Shown one piece after another: positions 2,547-30,290 of a stretch of DNA of 32,537 bases. A program made the position numbers and the translations under genes. The first letter of the stretch is position 1; every line of letters begins with the position of its first letter. The notes below the pieces were generated by a model. That model was not told the DNA's origin and did no database searches. It worked only from the letters and a program-made list of their open reading frames with translations. The DNA comes from a virus, in the IMG/VR virus record IMGVR_UViG_3300030098_005530, positions 531 through 33,067 of that record; one strand, 5' to 3'.

Positions 2547-2777
2547 TTATGCGCCTGTTTTATTTAACCCTTTTATAGGAAAAGCCTCAAATGGTAAACA
2601 AAAAGCATCTGTAACAAGAGCATCCTTGTATTCCTGAGGTTTAGATTCATAATAATTAAGGTAATTAGCCACTGAATCTAGACATTCCATTTCTGTATTA
2701 TATAATAATGCATTATATTTTACTGATGGCATATTTGGTGAAGACACCAGCATTAGCATAAGCCATATAGTTTTCAT
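2547..2777 (-). CDS. Small exported protein, 76 aa
   Basis: A short hydrophobic N-terminus (MKTIWLMLMLVSS) looks like a signal peptide or membrane anchor. The rest holds two cysteines (MECLD and AFCLP) that could pair outside the cytoplasm. The start overlaps the stop of the upstream 213-residue gene as ATGA, and its own stop abuts the next ATG, so it sits inside a translationally coupled operon. I recall similar small proteins (LYNTEMECLDSV..., FEAFPIKGL) from marine phages, but no function. Confidence 0.75.
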   Translation of the reverse strand: MKTIWLMLMLVSSPNMPSVKYNALLYNTEMECLDSVANYLNYYESKPQEYKDALVTDAFCLPFEAFPIKGLNKTGA

Positions 2778-3415
2778 TTTTGTTCCTTGAGCTCATAAAA
2801 AAAGCTCGAATCATCACCAGCTGTCCATTTAGTTTTATCTTCAACTGAGTAATATTTTGTTGATACTTTGAAATCAGGCTGCGATGGTTTGGAAGGCGTT
2901 AAAGATTTATCATAAAATAATACTCTGTTATTAGGTTGGGCAGCAAAATGCCCATTATCTAATTCTAGTATATTAAACGATTTGTGCTCCTCTGGGACCT
3001 CTGAGTAATTTACATTTAGGATATTTGTATCCGCATGGCAACTATCAATCGTAAATAAGTATTTACCATAATACCATTTCTTTGATGGTGCAAGATATTT
3101 ACACTTCATCGAGCCCATATAAGATTTATTTATTACTGCAATGTGGTAGCTAAATGCATCCCACAATTCTAGTTCTTCTAATTCGAGATTATCTTTAATA
3201 TCAGGAGAATTAACAAAAGCACTGATAGGGAGCTTATCGTATAAAGCACCATATTCCGGCAGATACGTTTCAAAGTAAAGTGCTCTACCTTCAAGTGACT
3301 TAACAGATATCCAAACACCTTCTACAAGTTCTCCATGTCCTTTTTCGTGATCATATAAATATTCCTTCTTAACGTATACCTTAACTGGAGGTAGATTTGC
3401 TACTAGAAATGCCAT
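2774..3415 (-). CDS. Conserved marine phage protein, 213 aa
   Basis: First gene of the minus-strand operon, preceded by a good ribosome site (GAGGAA just before the ATG). It has no signal peptide or membrane segment. The N-terminus (MAFLVANLPPVKVYVKKEYL, then GHGELVEGVW and LPEYGALYDKLPISAF) is, from memory, highly conserved among cyanophages and pelagiphages of several morphologies, always annotated as hypothetical. Such conservation with no enzyme motif hints at a virion or assembly role, which is inference. Its stop overlaps the next start (ATGA). Confidence 0.8.
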   Translation of the reverse strand: MAFLVANLPPVKVYVKKEYLYDHEKGHGELVEGVWISVKSLEGRALYFETYLPEYGALYDKLPISAFVNSPDIKDNLELEELELWDAFSYHIAVINKSYMGSMKCKYLAPSKKWYYGKYLFTIDSCHADTNILNVNYSEVPEEHKSFNILELDNGHFAAQPNNRVLFYDKSLTPSKPSQPDFKVSTKYYSVEDKTKWTAGDDSSFFYELKEQK

Positions 3416-4466: not shown

Positions 4467-4915
4467 ACACACCAGAGGAAAAGAAATACATAGCCGAGCG
4501 TGATAAATTAAGAAAAGAACAACCACGTAAATGGGATCATATTCAAAAGGAACGTGATAAAATACGCGAGAAGAAGGCGTCCCAGGCACTTGCTGATGCT
4601 GAAGCAATAAAAGAATTAGATTACACACCACCAACAGTAACGTTTGAACAACCACCTGAGGGTACTGAAATAGGTGGTATGAAATCATTTCATGTTGAGA
4701 AGGGTGAAGAAAAGAATACGTATGAAATTACAACGAAGCGTGAAATAACATTTCAATATTTAATTCGTGCTAAAAATGAAGAGGATGCAATGATTCGCAC
4801 ACTTGGCTTTGTTAGTAAAGACGGTAGTGGACAGCGTGAGGATGTTAAGCGTCCAATGTATTCAAGTAAACCCTTTATTCGTGAGTGGATAGATAAAATA
4901 AAGAAGGTTGGATGA
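4460..4915 (+). CDS. Unknown charged protein, 151 aa
   Basis: Starts inside the stop of the previous gene and ends with a TGA that overlaps the next ATG (ATGA at 4912). The N-terminal 50 residues are strongly Lys/Glu-rich and helical (EEKKYIAERDKLRKEQ). The rest looks like a small alpha/beta domain ending in a basic helix (WIDKIKKVG). There are no cysteines, membrane segments or catalytic motifs. Coupling to the oxygenase gene suggests shared timing but not a shared function. Confidence 0.75.
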   Translation: MVNTPEEKKYIAERDKLRKEQPRKWDHIQKERDKIREKKASQALADAEAIKELDYTPPTVTFEQPPEGTEIGGMKSFHVEKGEEKNTYEITTKREITFQYLIRAKNEEDAMIRTLGFVSKDGSGQREDVKRPMYSSKPFIREWIDKIKKVG

Positions 4916-5559
4916 GCGAAAATATAGAATTAAAATACGATATATATCAACCATTTGGTCCAAGTATATTAAAGACTACATTACCACGAGGTTTTGTTAA
5001 TTTATTAAATGCTGAATCTGATCGTATACTACATGATGAGAAATTAAGTAAAGAGCATGACTGGTCACATAATTTAGCAGGCAATGTCAAGAAAGAAGTT
5101 GCAATAGATCATAATAAAATTCCAAACTTTCCAGAGTTTATGATTACAATGGCAAAGCAATATTATAAACATACAATTGAAAAGGATCCTATTGAAGGTA
5201 GCAAAGTTGGTTTTCGTGTGTGGGCAGTATCACAATACGCAGGTGATTTTAATCCGATGCACATTCATGATGCAAATCTATCTGGTGTTGCATTTTTAAA
5301 AATACCACCAGGATTTGAAGAAGAATATAAAAAAGAGGATCATCATCCAACAGCTGGGTGCCTGGAGTTTCTTGGATCTATGCCTAATCATTTTGCAAGA
5401 CATAGTTATATTGCAAAACCAAAGGTAGGAGATTTTTATTTGTTTCCTTCATGGCTTACACACCAGGTGTATCCATTTAGGTCAGAAGGTGAGCGACGTT
5501 CGCTTGCATTTAATATACACTTTACAATGGATAAGCCAATAAAAGGTGTAAACGTTTAG
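4912..5559 (+). CDS. Putative 2OG-Fe(II) oxygenase, 215 aa
   Basis: Matches the pattern of the 2OG-FeII_Oxy_5 type oxygenases common in marine phages. It has an HxH element (H117, H119, followed by D120) in MHIHDANLSGVAFLK, then GDFYLFPSWLTH with the distal iron ligand H184, and an Arg after it (R195/R196) in ERRSLAFN that would hold 2-oxoglutarate. The length fits the family. Such enzymes couple 2-oxoglutarate decarboxylation to oxidation of a substrate. Here the substrate is unknown; modified nucleotides and protein side chains are both possible. The gene is coupled to its upstream neighbour (ATGA). Confidence 0.8.
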   Translation: MSENIELKYDIYQPFGPSILKTTLPRGFVNLLNAESDRILHDEKLSKEHDWSHNLAGNVKKEVAIDHNKIPNFPEFMITMAKQYYKHTIEKDPIEGSKVGFRVWAVSQYAGDFNPMHIHDANLSGVAFLKIPPGFEEEYKKEDHHPTAGCLEFLGSMPNHFARHSYIAKPKVGDFYLFPSWLTHQVYPFRSEGERRSLAFNIHFTMDKPIKGVNV

Positions 5560-10597: not shown

Positions 10598-12061
10598 ATG
10601 GAAACCGTTTCTAAATTAGAGTCACTAGATACGAATACACTGAAGTTGATTCTTAAAAATAAGCTGGAAGAAAAGCGTGAAAAAGCGCAAGGTGACTTCC
10701 TTACTTTTGTTAAGACAGTTTGGCCTGAATTCGTAGAAGGTAAACATCATAGGATATATGCGGAAAAGCTAAATCGTATTGCCAATGGTGAGCTTAAAAG
10801 ACTTATTGTCAATATGCCACCAAGACATACAAAATCAGAATTTGCATCAAATTTATTTCCGGCATTCTTCATGGGCCGCCATCCAAAAGCCAAGTTAATT
10901 CAAACAACACACACAGGAGAATTAGCAATCAGGTTTGGACGTAAGGCAAAGAACATGATAGAATCAAGTGAATATGAAAAAGTTTTTCCTCACGTTACCC
11001 TTGCTGCTGATTCAAAAGCTGCTGGTCGTTGGGAATCTAATCATGGTGGCGAGTATTTTGCTGCTGGTGTTGGTGGTGCTATTACTGGTCGTGGTGCCGA
11101 TTTACTTATTATTGATGATCCTCATTCAGAGCAAGATGCTCTTTCGCCCACGGTCCTAGAGTCACATTACGAGTGGTATACTTCTGGTCCACGTCAGCGT
11201 TTACAACCTGGTGGTGCCATAGTAATTGTAATGACAAGATGGTCTATTAAAGACCTTACTGGTAAATTGCTCGAGGCCCAAGGCAAAGATGATATGACGG
11301 ATAAGTGGGAAGTTGTAGAATTTCCTGCCATCATAAATGATAAGCCTATGTGGGGTAATTTTTGGACCATGAAAGGTTTACTTGGTGTTAAGGCATCTAT
11401 TCCACTTACAAAATGGCAAGCACAATGGATGCAACAACCTACATCCGAGGAAGGTGCACTTATAAAACGTGAGTGGTGGAAAAAATGGGAAAAGAAAGAG
11501 ATTCCTGAATTACAGTATATTATACAATCATATGATACTGCGTTCAGTTCAAAAGAGACAGCCGATTACTCGGCTATAACAACATGGGGTGTATTCCAGC
11601 CAAATGAGGGTGGAAGACCATGTATTATTCTTCTTGATGCAAAGAAAGGACGATGGAACTTTCCAGAGTTAAAAAATAAAGCACAAGAGGAATATAAATA
11701 TTGGGAGCCAGAATTGGTACTTGTGGAAGCGAAGGCGAGCGGCCTTCCATTAACCCACGAGCTCCAGAAGGCGGGGGTCCCTGTAATTAACTTTACACCG
11801 TCGAAGGGAAATGATAAACATTCAAGGGTAAACAGTGTCGCACCTATATTCGAATCAGGAGCAGTCTATGCTCCATTAGACAGACGTTGGGCAGAAGAAG
11901 TTATCGAGGAGTGTGCAGCATTTCCCTTTGGGGACCATGACGATTACGTTGATAGTACAACACAAGCATTAATGCGCTATCGACAAGGATATTATGTGGA
12001 ACTTAAAGATGACTTTGCTGACGAAGAGCGCGTTAGGGATAATAGGAGAAAATATTACTAA
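10598..12061 (+). CDS. terL: Terminase large subunit, 487 aa
   Basis: The ATPase and nuclease that pumps DNA into the prohead. The N-terminal ATPase shows a variant Walker A, MPPRHTKSE (73-81), Walker B LLIIDDP (169-175) and the coupling motif TRW (213-215). The C-terminal RNase H-like nuclease has SYDTAFS (D313), LVEAKASG (E377) and GDHDDYVDS (446-453). Length and motifs fit the Terminase_6 group. The leader lacks a ribosome site, but the start is the only one that includes the whole conserved N-terminus. The stop overlaps the next ATG (TAATG). The small subunit is encoded 3 kb upstream. Confidence 0.95.
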   Translation: METVSKLESLDTNTLKLILKNKLEEKREKAQGDFLTFVKTVWPEFVEGKHHRIYAEKLNRIANGELKRLIVNMPPRHTKSEFASNLFPAFFMGRHPKAKLIQTTHTGELAIRFGRKAKNMIESSEYEKVFPHVTLAADSKAAGRWESNHGGEYFAAGVGGAITGRGADLLIIDDPHSEQDALSPTVLESHYEWYTSGPRQRLQPGGAIVIVMTRWSIKDLTGKLLEAQGKDDMTDKWEVVEFPAIINDKPMWGNFWTMKGLLGVKASIPLTKWQAQWMQQPTSEEGALIKREWWKKWEKKEIPELQYIIQSYDTAFSSKETADYSAITTWGVFQPNEGGRPCIILLDAKKGRWNFPELKNKAQEEYKYWEPELVLVEAKASGLPLTHELQKAGVPVINFTPSKGNDKHSRVNSVAPIFESGAVYAPLDRRWAEEVIEECAAFPFGDHDDYVDSTTQALMRYRQGYYVELKDDFADEERVRDNRRKYY

Positions 12062-13383
12062 TGGCTGATCTAGAAAAAATTGATATGGGAAAAATGACTG
12101 ATGCTCGTAAAGAGGAATTCAGAAGACGTTGGCCCAAAGGTGATACCGGTATTGCTAGATTAGGGGCAGAAGCTGAAGGCTATGCTAAAGAATTAAGAGA
12201 ACAATATGGCACTGTTCCAAGCACCACGGACGAATATTCAAAAGGAATTGGTAATACGACTGTTGCTAACCAACAAGGTGAACAGCTAGATCAAGACGGC
12301 GCTAATTGGATGGCAGTTCTAGGAAACCAAGCACGATTAATTCCAGAATATTTTACTGAACTTGCACCAATAGCAAGATCAATGACACCTTTGTTTACAG
12401 GTGCTGAAACCTGGTCTGATTGGTGGGAAGGACAGAAATATGTAGGTCCAATAGATCTTCCTAGATCTATGACAAATACAAAGTTATCAATGGATGATAA
12501 TGTTGGAATGAATGGATTTGTCAAAATTGCAAAAAATCAAAAGGACGAAGAATTTGGACAAAGTATAAGTGGTCTTCTTGGAAGACAAATTGATGCGGAT
12601 ACAATTTTTAATTGGATTGCTGAAGATCATCCTGAAATAGAAACAAAAGAAGATGCAGAAAAACTATTTAATGAAAGTCCAGAGTTTAATGCAGAAGTTA
12701 ATAATTTTTTAGATAAAATACAACAAAGCGAAGAAGGGTCACAATACATGATGTATGGACGTGACTGGTTTCAAGACAAAGATAATTATTACATTAAAAA
12801 TTTTAAAAATACACCAGGGATAAATTTTGCGTGGACACAGCACAATGATTTAGCAATGCCTGGATTAGGGATATACAAAATTAATGATGATGGTAGTGGA
12901 TCCATGCTCCGTGCATCTCCATTATCATACAAAGGAATTCCAGGAATGGAACAATTGCAAGAAGCAGGATTATGGGGACAAGATCCTTCAGCAATGGGTG
13001 AAGTAGGACATTATAAATATAATATGATGTTTGATGGAGATAATCCTAAAACACAAATTTATTCACAAATTGCAGCAGTACCTGCAAGTATTGCAACTGG
13101 AAACATAAAGAACATAATGCATTTACCAAATGTAGCAAAAAATATTAGTGCCTTAAAGGGATTAAGAACTCCTGCAACACGACCTCTATGGAGTCAACCA
13201 GAAAGAACATCAGCATGGGGTGCTGGTCAACTTAAAGTTCCAGCGCAATCAGGAATTATACCAGAAACAGCAAAATCACTTACAGGATGGCCAGTGCTTA
13301 AAGGTGCATGGCAAAATAAAAAAGCAGTAGGTATAGCGTCTATCCCAGGATTATGGGGTGCATACGGACCTGACTGGCCGTAA
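12061..13383 (+). CDS. Unknown virion-module protein, 440 aa
   Basis: Coupled to the large terminase by a TAATG overlap. It is rich in Trp, Asn and acidic residues, without a signal peptide or recognisable domain. The middle is charged (ETKEDAEKLFNESPEFNAEV). The C-terminus is rich in Gly/Ala/Trp (KKAVGIASIPGLWGAYG). Notably, the next large gene lies in the same reading frame, separated only by this gene's TAA and one GCC codon, so the two form one 1644-codon frame broken by a single stop. The position between terminase and portal suggests an internal or ejected virion protein. This is inference. Confidence 0.75.
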   Translation: MADLEKIDMGKMTDARKEEFRRRWPKGDTGIARLGAEAEGYAKELREQYGTVPSTTDEYSKGIGNTTVANQQGEQLDQDGANWMAVLGNQARLIPEYFTELAPIARSMTPLFTGAETWSDWWEGQKYVGPIDLPRSMTNTKLSMDDNVGMNGFVKIAKNQKDEEFGQSISGLLGRQIDADTIFNWIAEDHPEIETKEDAEKLFNESPEFNAEVNNFLDKIQQSEEGSQYMMYGRDWFQDKDNYYIKNFKNTPGINFAWTQHNDLAMPGLGIYKINDDGSGSMLRASPLSYKGIPGMEQLQEAGLWGQDPSAMGEVGHYKYNMMFDGDNPKTQIYSQIAAVPASIATGNIKNIMHLPNVAKNISALKGLRTPATRPLWSQPERTSAWGAGQLKVPAQSGIIPETAKSLTGWPVLKGAWQNKKAVGIASIPGLWGAYGPDWP

Positions 13384-27993: not shown

Positions 27994-28743
27994 ATGGCTT
28001 ATTCAGGCACTCAAACATTTAACCTCTCAATAGAGGAAATAATCCAAGAAGCGCATGAGCGTTGTCAATTACAAGTTGGCGATGGTTATGATTTAAAGAC
28101 AGCTAAACGTTCTTTAAATTTGATGTTTGCAGAGTGGGCAAATCGTGGTTTAAATTTATGGACCATAGAGTATGCAACGCAAACTCTAACAGCTGGTACA
28201 AATTATTATTCAATTGATCAAAAAGTAGTAGATATAGTAGATGCAGCAATAACAACTACTACTGGTGCTACATCTAATTTAGAAGGTGACAGCAACACAA
28301 CAGATGTTTCTATGAATAGAATTTCTAGAACTGAATATTTAAATTTATCTAAGAAAGAAAATTCATCTAGTGGTGACGGAAGACCTGTACAATTTGCTTT
28401 AATTCCAGGACAAGTTACTGTTGGAGGATCTTCTTCAACTGGTCGTCCTGAAAATGATATGACATTATTCTTATATCCAAGTCCGGATAAAGCTTACATA
28501 TTTAAATATTTTTATATTGGTAGAATACAAGATGCGGGGGATTATACTAATAATGCCGATGTACCTTTTTATTTTTTACCATGTTTGACTGCAGGCCTAG
28601 CTTACTATATAAGTTTAAAAAAAGCACCAATGTTAAGTGCAAACTTAAAAGCGGTGTATGATGAAGAATTTGAACGTGCTGCTGATAATGACCGCGAACG
28701 TGTGTCATTTAAGACAAAACCAGCACAAGCGTATATACCATAG
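27994..28743 (+). CDS. Putative head-tail adaptor, 249 aa
   Basis: The N-terminal helices (FNLSIEEIIQEAHERCQLQ, LKTAKRSLNLMFAEWANRG) followed by WTIEYATQTLTAGTNYYSID and a beta part recall gp4-like/neck adaptors of podoviruses (the P22 gp4 and T7 gp11 role). The C-terminal helix (LKAVYDEEFERAADNDRERVSF) fits such ring proteins. It would bind under the portal. The assignment is by pattern memory and position; the exact family is uncertain. Confidence 0.65.
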   Translation: MAYSGTQTFNLSIEEIIQEAHERCQLQVGDGYDLKTAKRSLNLMFAEWANRGLNLWTIEYATQTLTAGTNYYSIDQKVVDIVDAAITTTTGATSNLEGDSNTTDVSMNRISRTEYLNLSKKENSSSGDGRPVQFALIPGQVTVGGSSSTGRPENDMTLFLYPSPDKAYIFKYFYIGRIQDAGDYTNNADVPFYFLPCLTAGLAYYISLKKAPMLSANLKAVYDEEFERAADNDRERVSFKTKPAQAYIP

Positions 28744-28751
28744 GAGGGAAT

Positions 28752-28862
28752 ATGCCAGAATGTAAAATATGTGGACATGAGTGTCATTGTAGTAATGGTG
28801 GATCATGTTGCGGAGGACAATGTGGATGTGCAGATTGTCAATGTCAAAAGGAGGAAAAATGA
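28752..28862 (+). CDS. Metallothionein-like Cys-rich micro-protein, 36 aa
   Basis: AGGAGGG precedes the ATG, and the TGA overlaps the next ATG (ATGA), so this tiny ORF is very likely translated. Ten of 36 residues are Cys (4, 7, 11, 13, 19, 20, 24, 26, 29, 31), plus His 9 and 12, in the order CxxC-G-H-x-C-H-C, then CC, CxC and CxC. It also has many Gly but few large hydrophobics. This is the pattern of a metallothionein binding zinc, copper or cadmium by thiolate clusters. Its place between adaptor genes is odd for such a protein. It could buffer metals for the cell or form a metal-bound virion peptide. Confidence 0.7.
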   Translation: MPECKICGHECHCSNGGSCCGGQCGCADCQCQKEEK

Positions 28863-29092
28863 GTAATCCAAATTGGAATAAAGATTCTAACGCCGGAAGA
28901 AGTTCTAAAGGTGGAGTAAAAGGAAATTGGAGTGATAGAGGAACTATCTCAATTCCTAATGCTAGCCCTAAGGAAAAAGAAAAAGCTATTTCTATTGCTA
29001 AAGGAACTATTACAGGTTCTGCAAAAGGAATGGGTGCAGCTGCTAAAGGTGGAAAGTATCATTGGGCTGGATCAAAAGATTCTAAATGGTAG
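28859..29092 (+). CDS. Small basic Gly/Ser/Lys-rich protein, 77 aa
   Basis: The ATG at 28859 has a perfect AAGGAGG upstream and overlaps the metallothionein-like stop; the frame is open further upstream but that part reads over the other gene. The protein is basic and low in hydrophobics (WNKDSNAGRSSKGGVKGNW, GSAKGMGAAAKGGKYHW). It may bind nucleic acid or be a virion component. I recall similar small proteins in pelagiphages, with no function. Confidence 0.7.
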   Translation: MSNPNWNKDSNAGRSSKGGVKGNWSDRGTISIPNASPKEKEKAISIAKGTITGSAKGMGAAAKGGKYHWAGSKDSKW

Positions 29093-29097
29093 GATAA

Positions 29098-29592
29098 ATG
29101 GCTTACGCTAGAGGAAAATACGCTAAATTTATTTCTGACCGTAGTGGTATGGAATATCCATACACTGAAATGGTTATAGAATGGAATGGCTCACGTGTTC
29201 ATAAAAGTGAATTTGAACCAAAAGCGCCACAGGAACAACCACAAAAGTATGTTCCAGATCCTGAACCTTTACAGTTTCCAAGACCTGATAGAACAGAAAA
29301 TGCAGTTGCAACATTACTTCCTCGTAATCCTTTTAGGTTTACAGCTAGTAGTTCAACAATAACAGTATTTGAACCAGATCATGGAAGATCTAGTAGTGAC
29401 ACTGTAAGATTTAGAGATGTTACAGGAAATTTATTTGGAGCTTCTGTAACTGAACTAGAAGATTCAGACGGATATAGTATAACAAAAACAGATGATGATT
29501 TTTACACATTTACGGTGTCAACGGCACCAGGAACAACAGGAAATGGTGGTGGAGGCTATGCTTCTGCTGGACCAGCAACATTGAGTAACTAA
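29098..29592 (+). CDS. Virion-module protein with relic zinc ribbon, 164 aa
   Basis: The N-terminus (YAKFISDRSGMEYPYTEMVIEWNGSRVHKSEFEPKAPQ) has the outline of a small zinc-ribbon domain found in phage structural proteins, in which other members show two Cys pairs where this one has Ser and His. The metal site therefore appears lost. A Pro-rich linker leads to a beta-rich C-terminus ending in a Gly run. It sits between adaptor genes and ends in a TAATG overlap with the next gene. A tail-assembly or adaptor-associated role is inferred. Confidence 0.7.
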   Translation: MAYARGKYAKFISDRSGMEYPYTEMVIEWNGSRVHKSEFEPKAPQEQPQKYVPDPEPLQFPRPDRTENAVATLLPRNPFRFTASSSTITVFEPDHGRSSSDTVRFRDVTGNLFGASVTELEDSDGYSITKTDDDFYTFTVSTAPGTTGNGGGGYASAGPATLSN

Positions 29593-30290
29593 TGACAACA
29601 TACGCAGAATTAACAACACAGATTTTAAATTATACTGAAACAAGTACAGATGTATTGTCATCTACCATTACAGATGATTTTATAGAGCATACTGAAAATA
29701 GAATATTAAGGGAAGTTGATTTAGATGTTTTTAAATCTCATCAAACAGCAACCTTTACTTCTAGTAATGCTTTTTTATCATTACCTGGTGGGTCCTCTCC
29801 TGATCCAACATCGCTTGTGACAATTAGAACAGTTCACATCTGGCCTGCTTCTGGCACAGCTAATAGAACATTTTTAGAAAAAAAAGATTTAAGTTATATG
29901 AATGAATACTGGCCAAATAGGACATCTACAGGAACGCCAAAGTACTGGTCTAACTGGGATCATAACACAATTTATGTTGCGCCAACGCCGGATTCAGCGT
30001 ATAACGTAGAATTAGGAATTACTAGACTACCTACAAGACTATCTAGTAGTAATACAACCTCATGGTTGGGTAATAATGCTCCATCAGCATTATTATATGG
30101 ATGTCTTGCAGAAGCCTTCAAATTCTTGAAGGGCCCAGCTGAAATGCTGCAATTATATGAACAATCATATCTACGTGCTATCCAGGAATTGACAATAGAA
30201 CAAACTGGAAAGAAACGAAGAGATGAGTATATGCAAGGGGAATTAAGAATACCATTGCAACAACAAGAACAGAAATCCACAGGAGGATAG
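29592..30290 (+). CDS. Phage adaptor protein, SU10-like, 232 aa
   Basis: Starts within the upstream stop. The N-terminal helices (YAELTTQILNYTETSTDVLSS, DDFIEHTENRILREVDLDVF), then YWSNWDHNTIYVAPTPDSAYNVELGITRLPTRLSS and WLGNNAPSALLYGCLAEAFKFLKGP match, from memory, the adaptor protein family typified by phage SU10, which joins portal and tail. The C-terminal helix is followed by a Gln/Lys-rich tail. Together with the 249-residue protein it would build the neck. Confidence 0.75.
   Translation: MTTYAELTTQILNYTETSTDVLSSTITDDFIEHTENRILREVDLDVFKSHQTATFTSSNAFLSLPGGSSPDPTSLVTIRTVHIWPASGTANRTFLEKKDLSYMNEYWPNRTSTGTPKYWSNWDHNTIYVAPTPDSAYNVELGITRLPTRLSSSNTTSWLGNNAPSALLYGCLAEAFKFLKGPAEMLQLYEQSYLRAIQELTIEQTGKKRRDEYMQGELRIPLQQQEQKSTGG

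Follow-up and report, generated by a model that had tools for sequence, protein, structure and literature searches.

A short reading frame in the virus DNA analysed here is, judged by its conservation and by selection, a real gene, and its product is most likely a phage metallothionein-like metal-thiolate peptide produced alongside the late structural genes. We consider it probable that this genuine phage gene encodes a soluble metal buffer or store, made late in the infected cell. The window, by which we mean the whole stretch of 32,537 nucleotides that was analysed, is nearly the whole of a 33,067-base virus record. The analysis directly supports the reality of the gene, its conservation, purifying selection, the order of its cysteines, and module exchange, loss and relocation.

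The peptide gene and its neighbours

The translation, MPECKICGHECHCSNGGSCCGGQCGCADCQCQKEEK, is 36 amino acids long and does hold the ten Cys and two His counted in the first-pass annotation (28% Cys). The gene and its surroundings are as follows.

27994..28743, + strand: upstream head-tail adaptor, SU10_adaptor PF24175 (Pfam match 5e-8), syntenic anchor
28742..28747, + strand: AGGAGG ribosome site for the peptide gene, overlapping the adaptor TAG stop (28741-28743)
28752..28862, + strand: metallothionein-like peptide gene, long module, C4xxC7x3C11xC13x5C19C20x3C24xC26xxC29xC31 plus H9 and H12
28845..28859, + strand: C-terminal codons Q-K-E-E-K (CAA AAG GAG GAA AAA), with AAGGAGG at 28848-28854 as the next gene's ribosome site
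28859..29092, + strand: 77-aa gene after the peptide gene, function unknown, its start overlapping the peptide stop via ATGA (28859-28862)
29098..29592, + strand: structural-module gene downstream of the peptide gene, phrog_28581 (function unknown), second syntenic anchor
29592..30290, + strand: second adaptor-like protein, SU10_adaptor PF24175 (Pfam match 1.5e-25)

The gene had been placed inside a neck-gene cluster, and this is correct, since the genes on both sides, at 27994-28743 and 29592-30290, match PF24175. The second adaptor is closest to proteins of the cultured Pelagibacter phages HTVC027P (43% identity) and HTVC023P (41%), and a SAR11-type host is therefore likely for this phage. 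Phages of the ocean bacterium Pelagibacter are the nearest cultured relatives of these uncultured viruses. Relatives of the upstream adaptor were searched for in genome contigs and none was found.

Several other genes were noted in the window. The 77-aa product (28859-29092, +), which is rich in Gly, Lys and Ser and has no match in Pfam, is co-conserved after the peptide and retained where the peptide is lost. The product of 2774-3415 (-) strongly matches phrog_3704, which is annotated as ferredoxin (5e-99; class 'moron, auxiliary metabolic gene'), and a 2OG-Fe(II) oxygenase (4912-5559, +; phrog_81) is also found near structural genes in related phages. A co-chaperonin GroES-like phage protein (22956-23450, +) matches phrog_3188 over residues 59-155 only, its N-terminal stretch being unmatched.

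The peptide gene is closely tied to its neighbours. Its ribosome site had been called perfect; AGGAGG is indeed strong, and the adjective is slightly generous, the spacer to the ATG being short at 4 nt. GGAGG or AGGAG precedes the peptide gene in 109 of 125 distinct genes. At the other end the ATGA overlap with the downstream gene is present as described, and every one of the 117 distinct genes with a [KQ]KE[ED] C-terminus has the codons AAG GAG G. The phage prefers AAA over AAG (272 to 71) and GAA over GAG (262 to 59), and since these codons hold AAGGAGG despite that preference, the conserved KKE need not reflect peptide function. The embedded site would tie translation of the next gene to that of the peptide. 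Together with the overlap and the spacing, it supports the proposed co-expression with the adaptor genes.

Conservation and selection

Loci were fetched through the adaptor and the phrog_28581 gene, and thus independently of the frame itself, from 146 sources including the window. A Cys-rich frame stands at the same spot in 128 of the 146 loci; the remaining 18 comprise 15 that end at a contig edge and three (L075, L077 and L078) that are cleanly without it. In these three the 77-aa gene begins about 9 bases past the adaptor and gene order is otherwise unchanged. Pattern searches and neighbour-fetched loci together gave 99 distinct proteins, from collections of viral contigs of unknown sampling, with overlapping loci and many near-duplicates. 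A pattern of Cys spacings alone returned mostly antisense TGC/TGT repeats from viral contigs, and later patterns therefore included specific residues. Frame and position are kept across the neighbour-fetched loci, which excludes the possibility, raised in the first-pass annotation, that the frame is not conserved in relatives.

Purifying selection is strong on the cysteines. Across the family the Cys columns are near-invariant, with codons varying between TGT and TGC; among the 36-aa forms of the neighbour-fetched loci there is no Cys loss in 290 column cells (226 TGT, 64 TGC). In the alignment of long forms (A1) the invariant positions are C4, C7, C11, H12, C13, C19, C24, C26, C29 and C31. 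Pooled dN/dS for the 36-aa forms, from pairs that are not independent, is 0.15 overall and 0.30 outside the Cys columns, and the 28-aa forms are less constrained there (0.82).

These results bear on whether the stretch encodes a protein at all. It might be a leader that serves only to give the downstream gene its ribosome site, as the site fixed in all 117 C-termini would allow, or a chance frame. Against this stand the strong purifying selection on the Cys columns amid synonymous drift and the state of the two other forward frames, one of which is closed in every member. An RNA-level role was rejected, as no structure was found in the RNA (z 0.19) and Rfam gave no credible match. A chance origin of such a composition is rare: in 100 random windows matched to the dinucleotide make-up of the real one, 25% Cys was attained by a single frame among 19,947 small ATG-ORFs (25-60 aa), and the real window has one. 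A leader or chance frame is thus scarcely credible, and we infer that the peptide is translated.

Two cysteine modules exchanged at one locus

The family comes in two versions, which were not recognised as interchangeable in the first reading of the sequence. The long module, CxxCx3CxCx5CCx3CxCx2CxC, carries its His as CxxCxHxCHCx5CCx3CxCx2CxC and has ten Cys. The short module, CxxCx3CxCx3CxCx2CxC, has seven to nine (example, MVKCEKCGCDCDCKDNCQCTNCECKKEEK). Their profiles are related (HHalign E 5e-19).

The labels were mapped onto a quick tree of 131 adaptors with support by SH-aLRT only. There the long label requires 14 changes and the short label 12, of which 7 and 6, respectively, are forced by well-supported branches; shuffled labels require about 43. 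Absence of the peptide gene needs three changes on the same tree. The adaptors of L081 (short) and L082 (long; labelled by hand, as automatic labelling overlooked it) are identical. From these label changes and the identical adaptors it follows that the peptide gene has repeatedly been replaced by its other version at one locus.

Tailed forms, a second genomic site and a possible virion role

The main rival to a metal buffer is a role in the virion, as a small metal-clipped neck protein that would bind Zn and sit on or between the adaptor rings or aid their assembly. The translational coupling described above agrees with it, and so does position. In a divergent group (L433, L434-436 and L438) the adaptor is only 40% identical to that of the window, and the module still lies between adaptor genes. 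In this group the peptides are extended at the N-terminus and carry a C-terminal tail that closes with motifs such as FDPDFSLTIH, with the short module in L434-436 and the long one in L433 and L438. The conserved C-terminal motif of the tailed version, [FY][DE]xDF[SN][LVI]TxH, could bind a partner.

Other observations count against a neck protein. The gene is cleanly absent from the three loci named above, and modules that range from 25 to 38 aa and differ in Cys number swap at one locus beside nearly identical neighbours. Tailed long modules also occur without an adaptor nearby (L187, L286, L308, L333 and L334). In L187 and L334 the tailed gene lies downstream of ribonucleotide-reductase genes and is followed by a gene for a lysozyme-like product, after which holin- and spanin-like genes come in L334; these names come from inspection of the genes rather than from strong profile matches. 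The question whether the peptide helps assembly had been posed from the sequence, and no specific result favours it, the gene being absent in a close clade and elsewhere beside lysis-like genes. On this evidence we regard a virion role as unlikely.

Records searched whole with profile A1, which can miss short forms, hold one copy of the peptide or none. In L334 a lysine-rich ORF upstream (11933-12265, in the region 11933-12276; KKGALHKDLGVPMGKKIP...) overlaps the tailed gene across AAAAAG in a different frame. This may be a plain overlap, a frameshift or a run-on; a programmed frameshift that yields the tailed form seems less likely, because GAGG stands before the ATG and the overlapping ORF is missing in L187.

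Proposed function

The soluble metal buffer that we favour would work as follows. The peptide would be made late, translationally coupled to the adaptor and to the following small gene, as the overlap and ribosome sites suggest. We predict that its CxC- and CxxC-ordered cysteines hold several Zn(II), Cu(I) or Cd(II) ions together in a single thiolate cluster and, by analogy with metallothionein chemistry, that the two His make the long form prefer Zn(II). The peptide may then serve as a soluble buffer or store of metal while structural proteins are produced. Metal binding, the identity of the metal, timing and role are all what we infer from the sequences. Two points could be held against a buffer: its place among virion genes could mean a structural role, and an accessory gene that exchanges freely would not usually keep its position for so long.

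The exchange of two module types by these phages would probably match metal supply. A broader proposal, which we put forward tentatively, is that this is a phage-specific metallothionein family with no detectable cellular homologues, in which a swap of about 100 bases at one fixed late locus would retune metal preference to each ocean niche. In that proposal the His-containing module would be the Zn type and the His-free module possibly a Cu type.

The cysteines could also serve without metal, as a thiol, sulphur or redox buffer in which Cys content is what matters. The peptide's Cys share certainly stands out, 15 other late proteins of the phage's structural module holding only 0.28%. However, it is the order of the cysteines, not their number alone, that is conserved and resembles metallothionein, and the His of the long form are near-invariant, which makes a purely thiol-based role quite improbable.

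A further alternative, which we think very doubtful, is that the peptide regulates the expression of host or phage genes as a small protein of the zinc-finger or zinc-knuckle type. Its N-terminal CxxC(G)xxxCxC looks like one half of a zinc ribbon, and the short profile has a weak, local match to the transcription-machinery zinc-ribbon protein 1qyp (E 1.3). Zinc ribbons and fingers are recognised because they match a profile and use some four ligands in each fold, whereas this peptide gives no Pfam zinc-finger match and packs 10 Cys and 2 His into one short chain. Ten Cys in 28 residues exceed the needs of one or two mononuclear zinc sites, and basic or aromatic residues are not conserved between them.

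If the peptide does bind metal, widespread phages spend scarce reduced sulphur on a metal buffer during particle production, and infection is linked to the handling of Zn, Cu or Cd; these phages may thus have their own protein for handling metals. SAR11 bacteria require reduced sulphur, so in hosts of that group the expense would be especially notable. The two modules that already replace each other at this locus also lend themselves directly to a structure-function comparison. No paper on a phage-encoded metallothionein was found among the open-access papers searched; one may nevertheless have been described before, for example in subscription papers.

Comparison with known metallothioneins

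The peptide family lies outside every named family: neither it nor any member reaches the cut-off in Pfam, and searches of NCBIfam and PHROGs gave no match. No cellular homologue was found when the genomes of about 85,000 prokaryote species were scanned with a pattern of SD, ATG and spacing, which returned two TGC microsatellites only. A tblastn search of annotated phage records with the peptide and a tailed relative gave no match, under a low-complexity filter that may mask such sequences. AlphaFold gave neither helix nor long strand (pLDDT 63), which is uninformative as to fold; as a weak argument, the prediction is in keeping with a peptide whose fold is imposed by metal.

The description 'metallothionein-like' nevertheless gains support from the order of the cysteines, beyond their content. 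In profile searches of the PDB, metallothionein chains (MT-1 and MT-2 beta domains, MT_nc and the EC protein) made up five of the seven long-form matches and two of the three short-form matches, at E 0.09 to 1.4, scores that are not significant alone. Alignment columns were then permuted to see whether composition was the source of these matches. The observed score was reached in none of 400 permutations for the long form (three MT beta domains) and in 0 to 1 of 400 for the short form, so the resemblance appears to depend on the order of the cysteines and not on content alone. Single-member Pfam scans gave weak matches, mainly to five eukaryotic metallothionein families. In the broad, functional sense metallothioneins are small, with at least about 20% Cys in CxC, CxxC or CC and few or no aromatic residues, and they hold several d10 metal ions in thiolate clusters. 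In size and composition the peptide is of this kind, with no Phe, Tyr or Trp, and so are nearly all untailed family members.

Among prokaryote-associated proteins, the bacterial SmtA/PmtA family (PF02069, Metallothio_Pro) likewise consists of small Cys/His metal-thiolate proteins. Nothing in the window's record matched PF02069 at E <= 10, though a control set was detected, and no member of A1 or of the short-form alignment A2 matched. Small, lysine-rich proteins with a C-terminal CxC/CxxC cluster are also found in cultured Pelagibacter phages, namely HTVC106P gp36 and HTVC021P gp54, which differ from the peptide in their amphipathic N-terminus and genomic place. HTVC106P gp36 (QGZ18079.1; L432:25597-25794) joins that N-terminus to cysteines clustered at the C-terminus (KCKDCKCDCHCKDD...CNCEGCKH). 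Other pelagiphages share the gp36-type N-terminus; among them the HTVC021P protein ends in CKCKDKGKCQCK, and that of HTVC034P has only lysines. Profile A1 found no match in HTVC106P searched whole, and these Cys tails form a second, perhaps convergent, story.

Two further parallels are eukaryotic. The vertebrate metallothionein beta domain (PF00131, Metallothio; PDB 1dft, 2mrt, 2mhu, 9q7p and 1m0j) is similar in size, Cys share and Cys order. From the shared CxC on, the spacings are 2,6,1,4,2,3,2 in the phage long form and 2,6,2,4,2,3,2 in the beta domain, so that six of seven are equal and one differs. The phage form adds an N-terminal CxxC, has CC in place of one CxC, carries two His and lacks the vertebrate alpha domain. 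PF00131 does not match the window peptide even at E 10, whereas several short members match it weakly (best E 0.0047). Convergence rather than homology with the vertebrate protein is possible. The plant PEC/EC metallothionein (PF02068; PDB 2kak) provides the counterpart of the short form, whose CxCx3CxCx2CxC, with spacings 2,4,2,3,2, coincides exactly with the stretch of the EC protein to which it was matched; unlike PEC/EC, the phage form is one short module, and scores are weak (best E 0.024). Most probably, then, the phage peptide works like a metallothionein, outside the named families.
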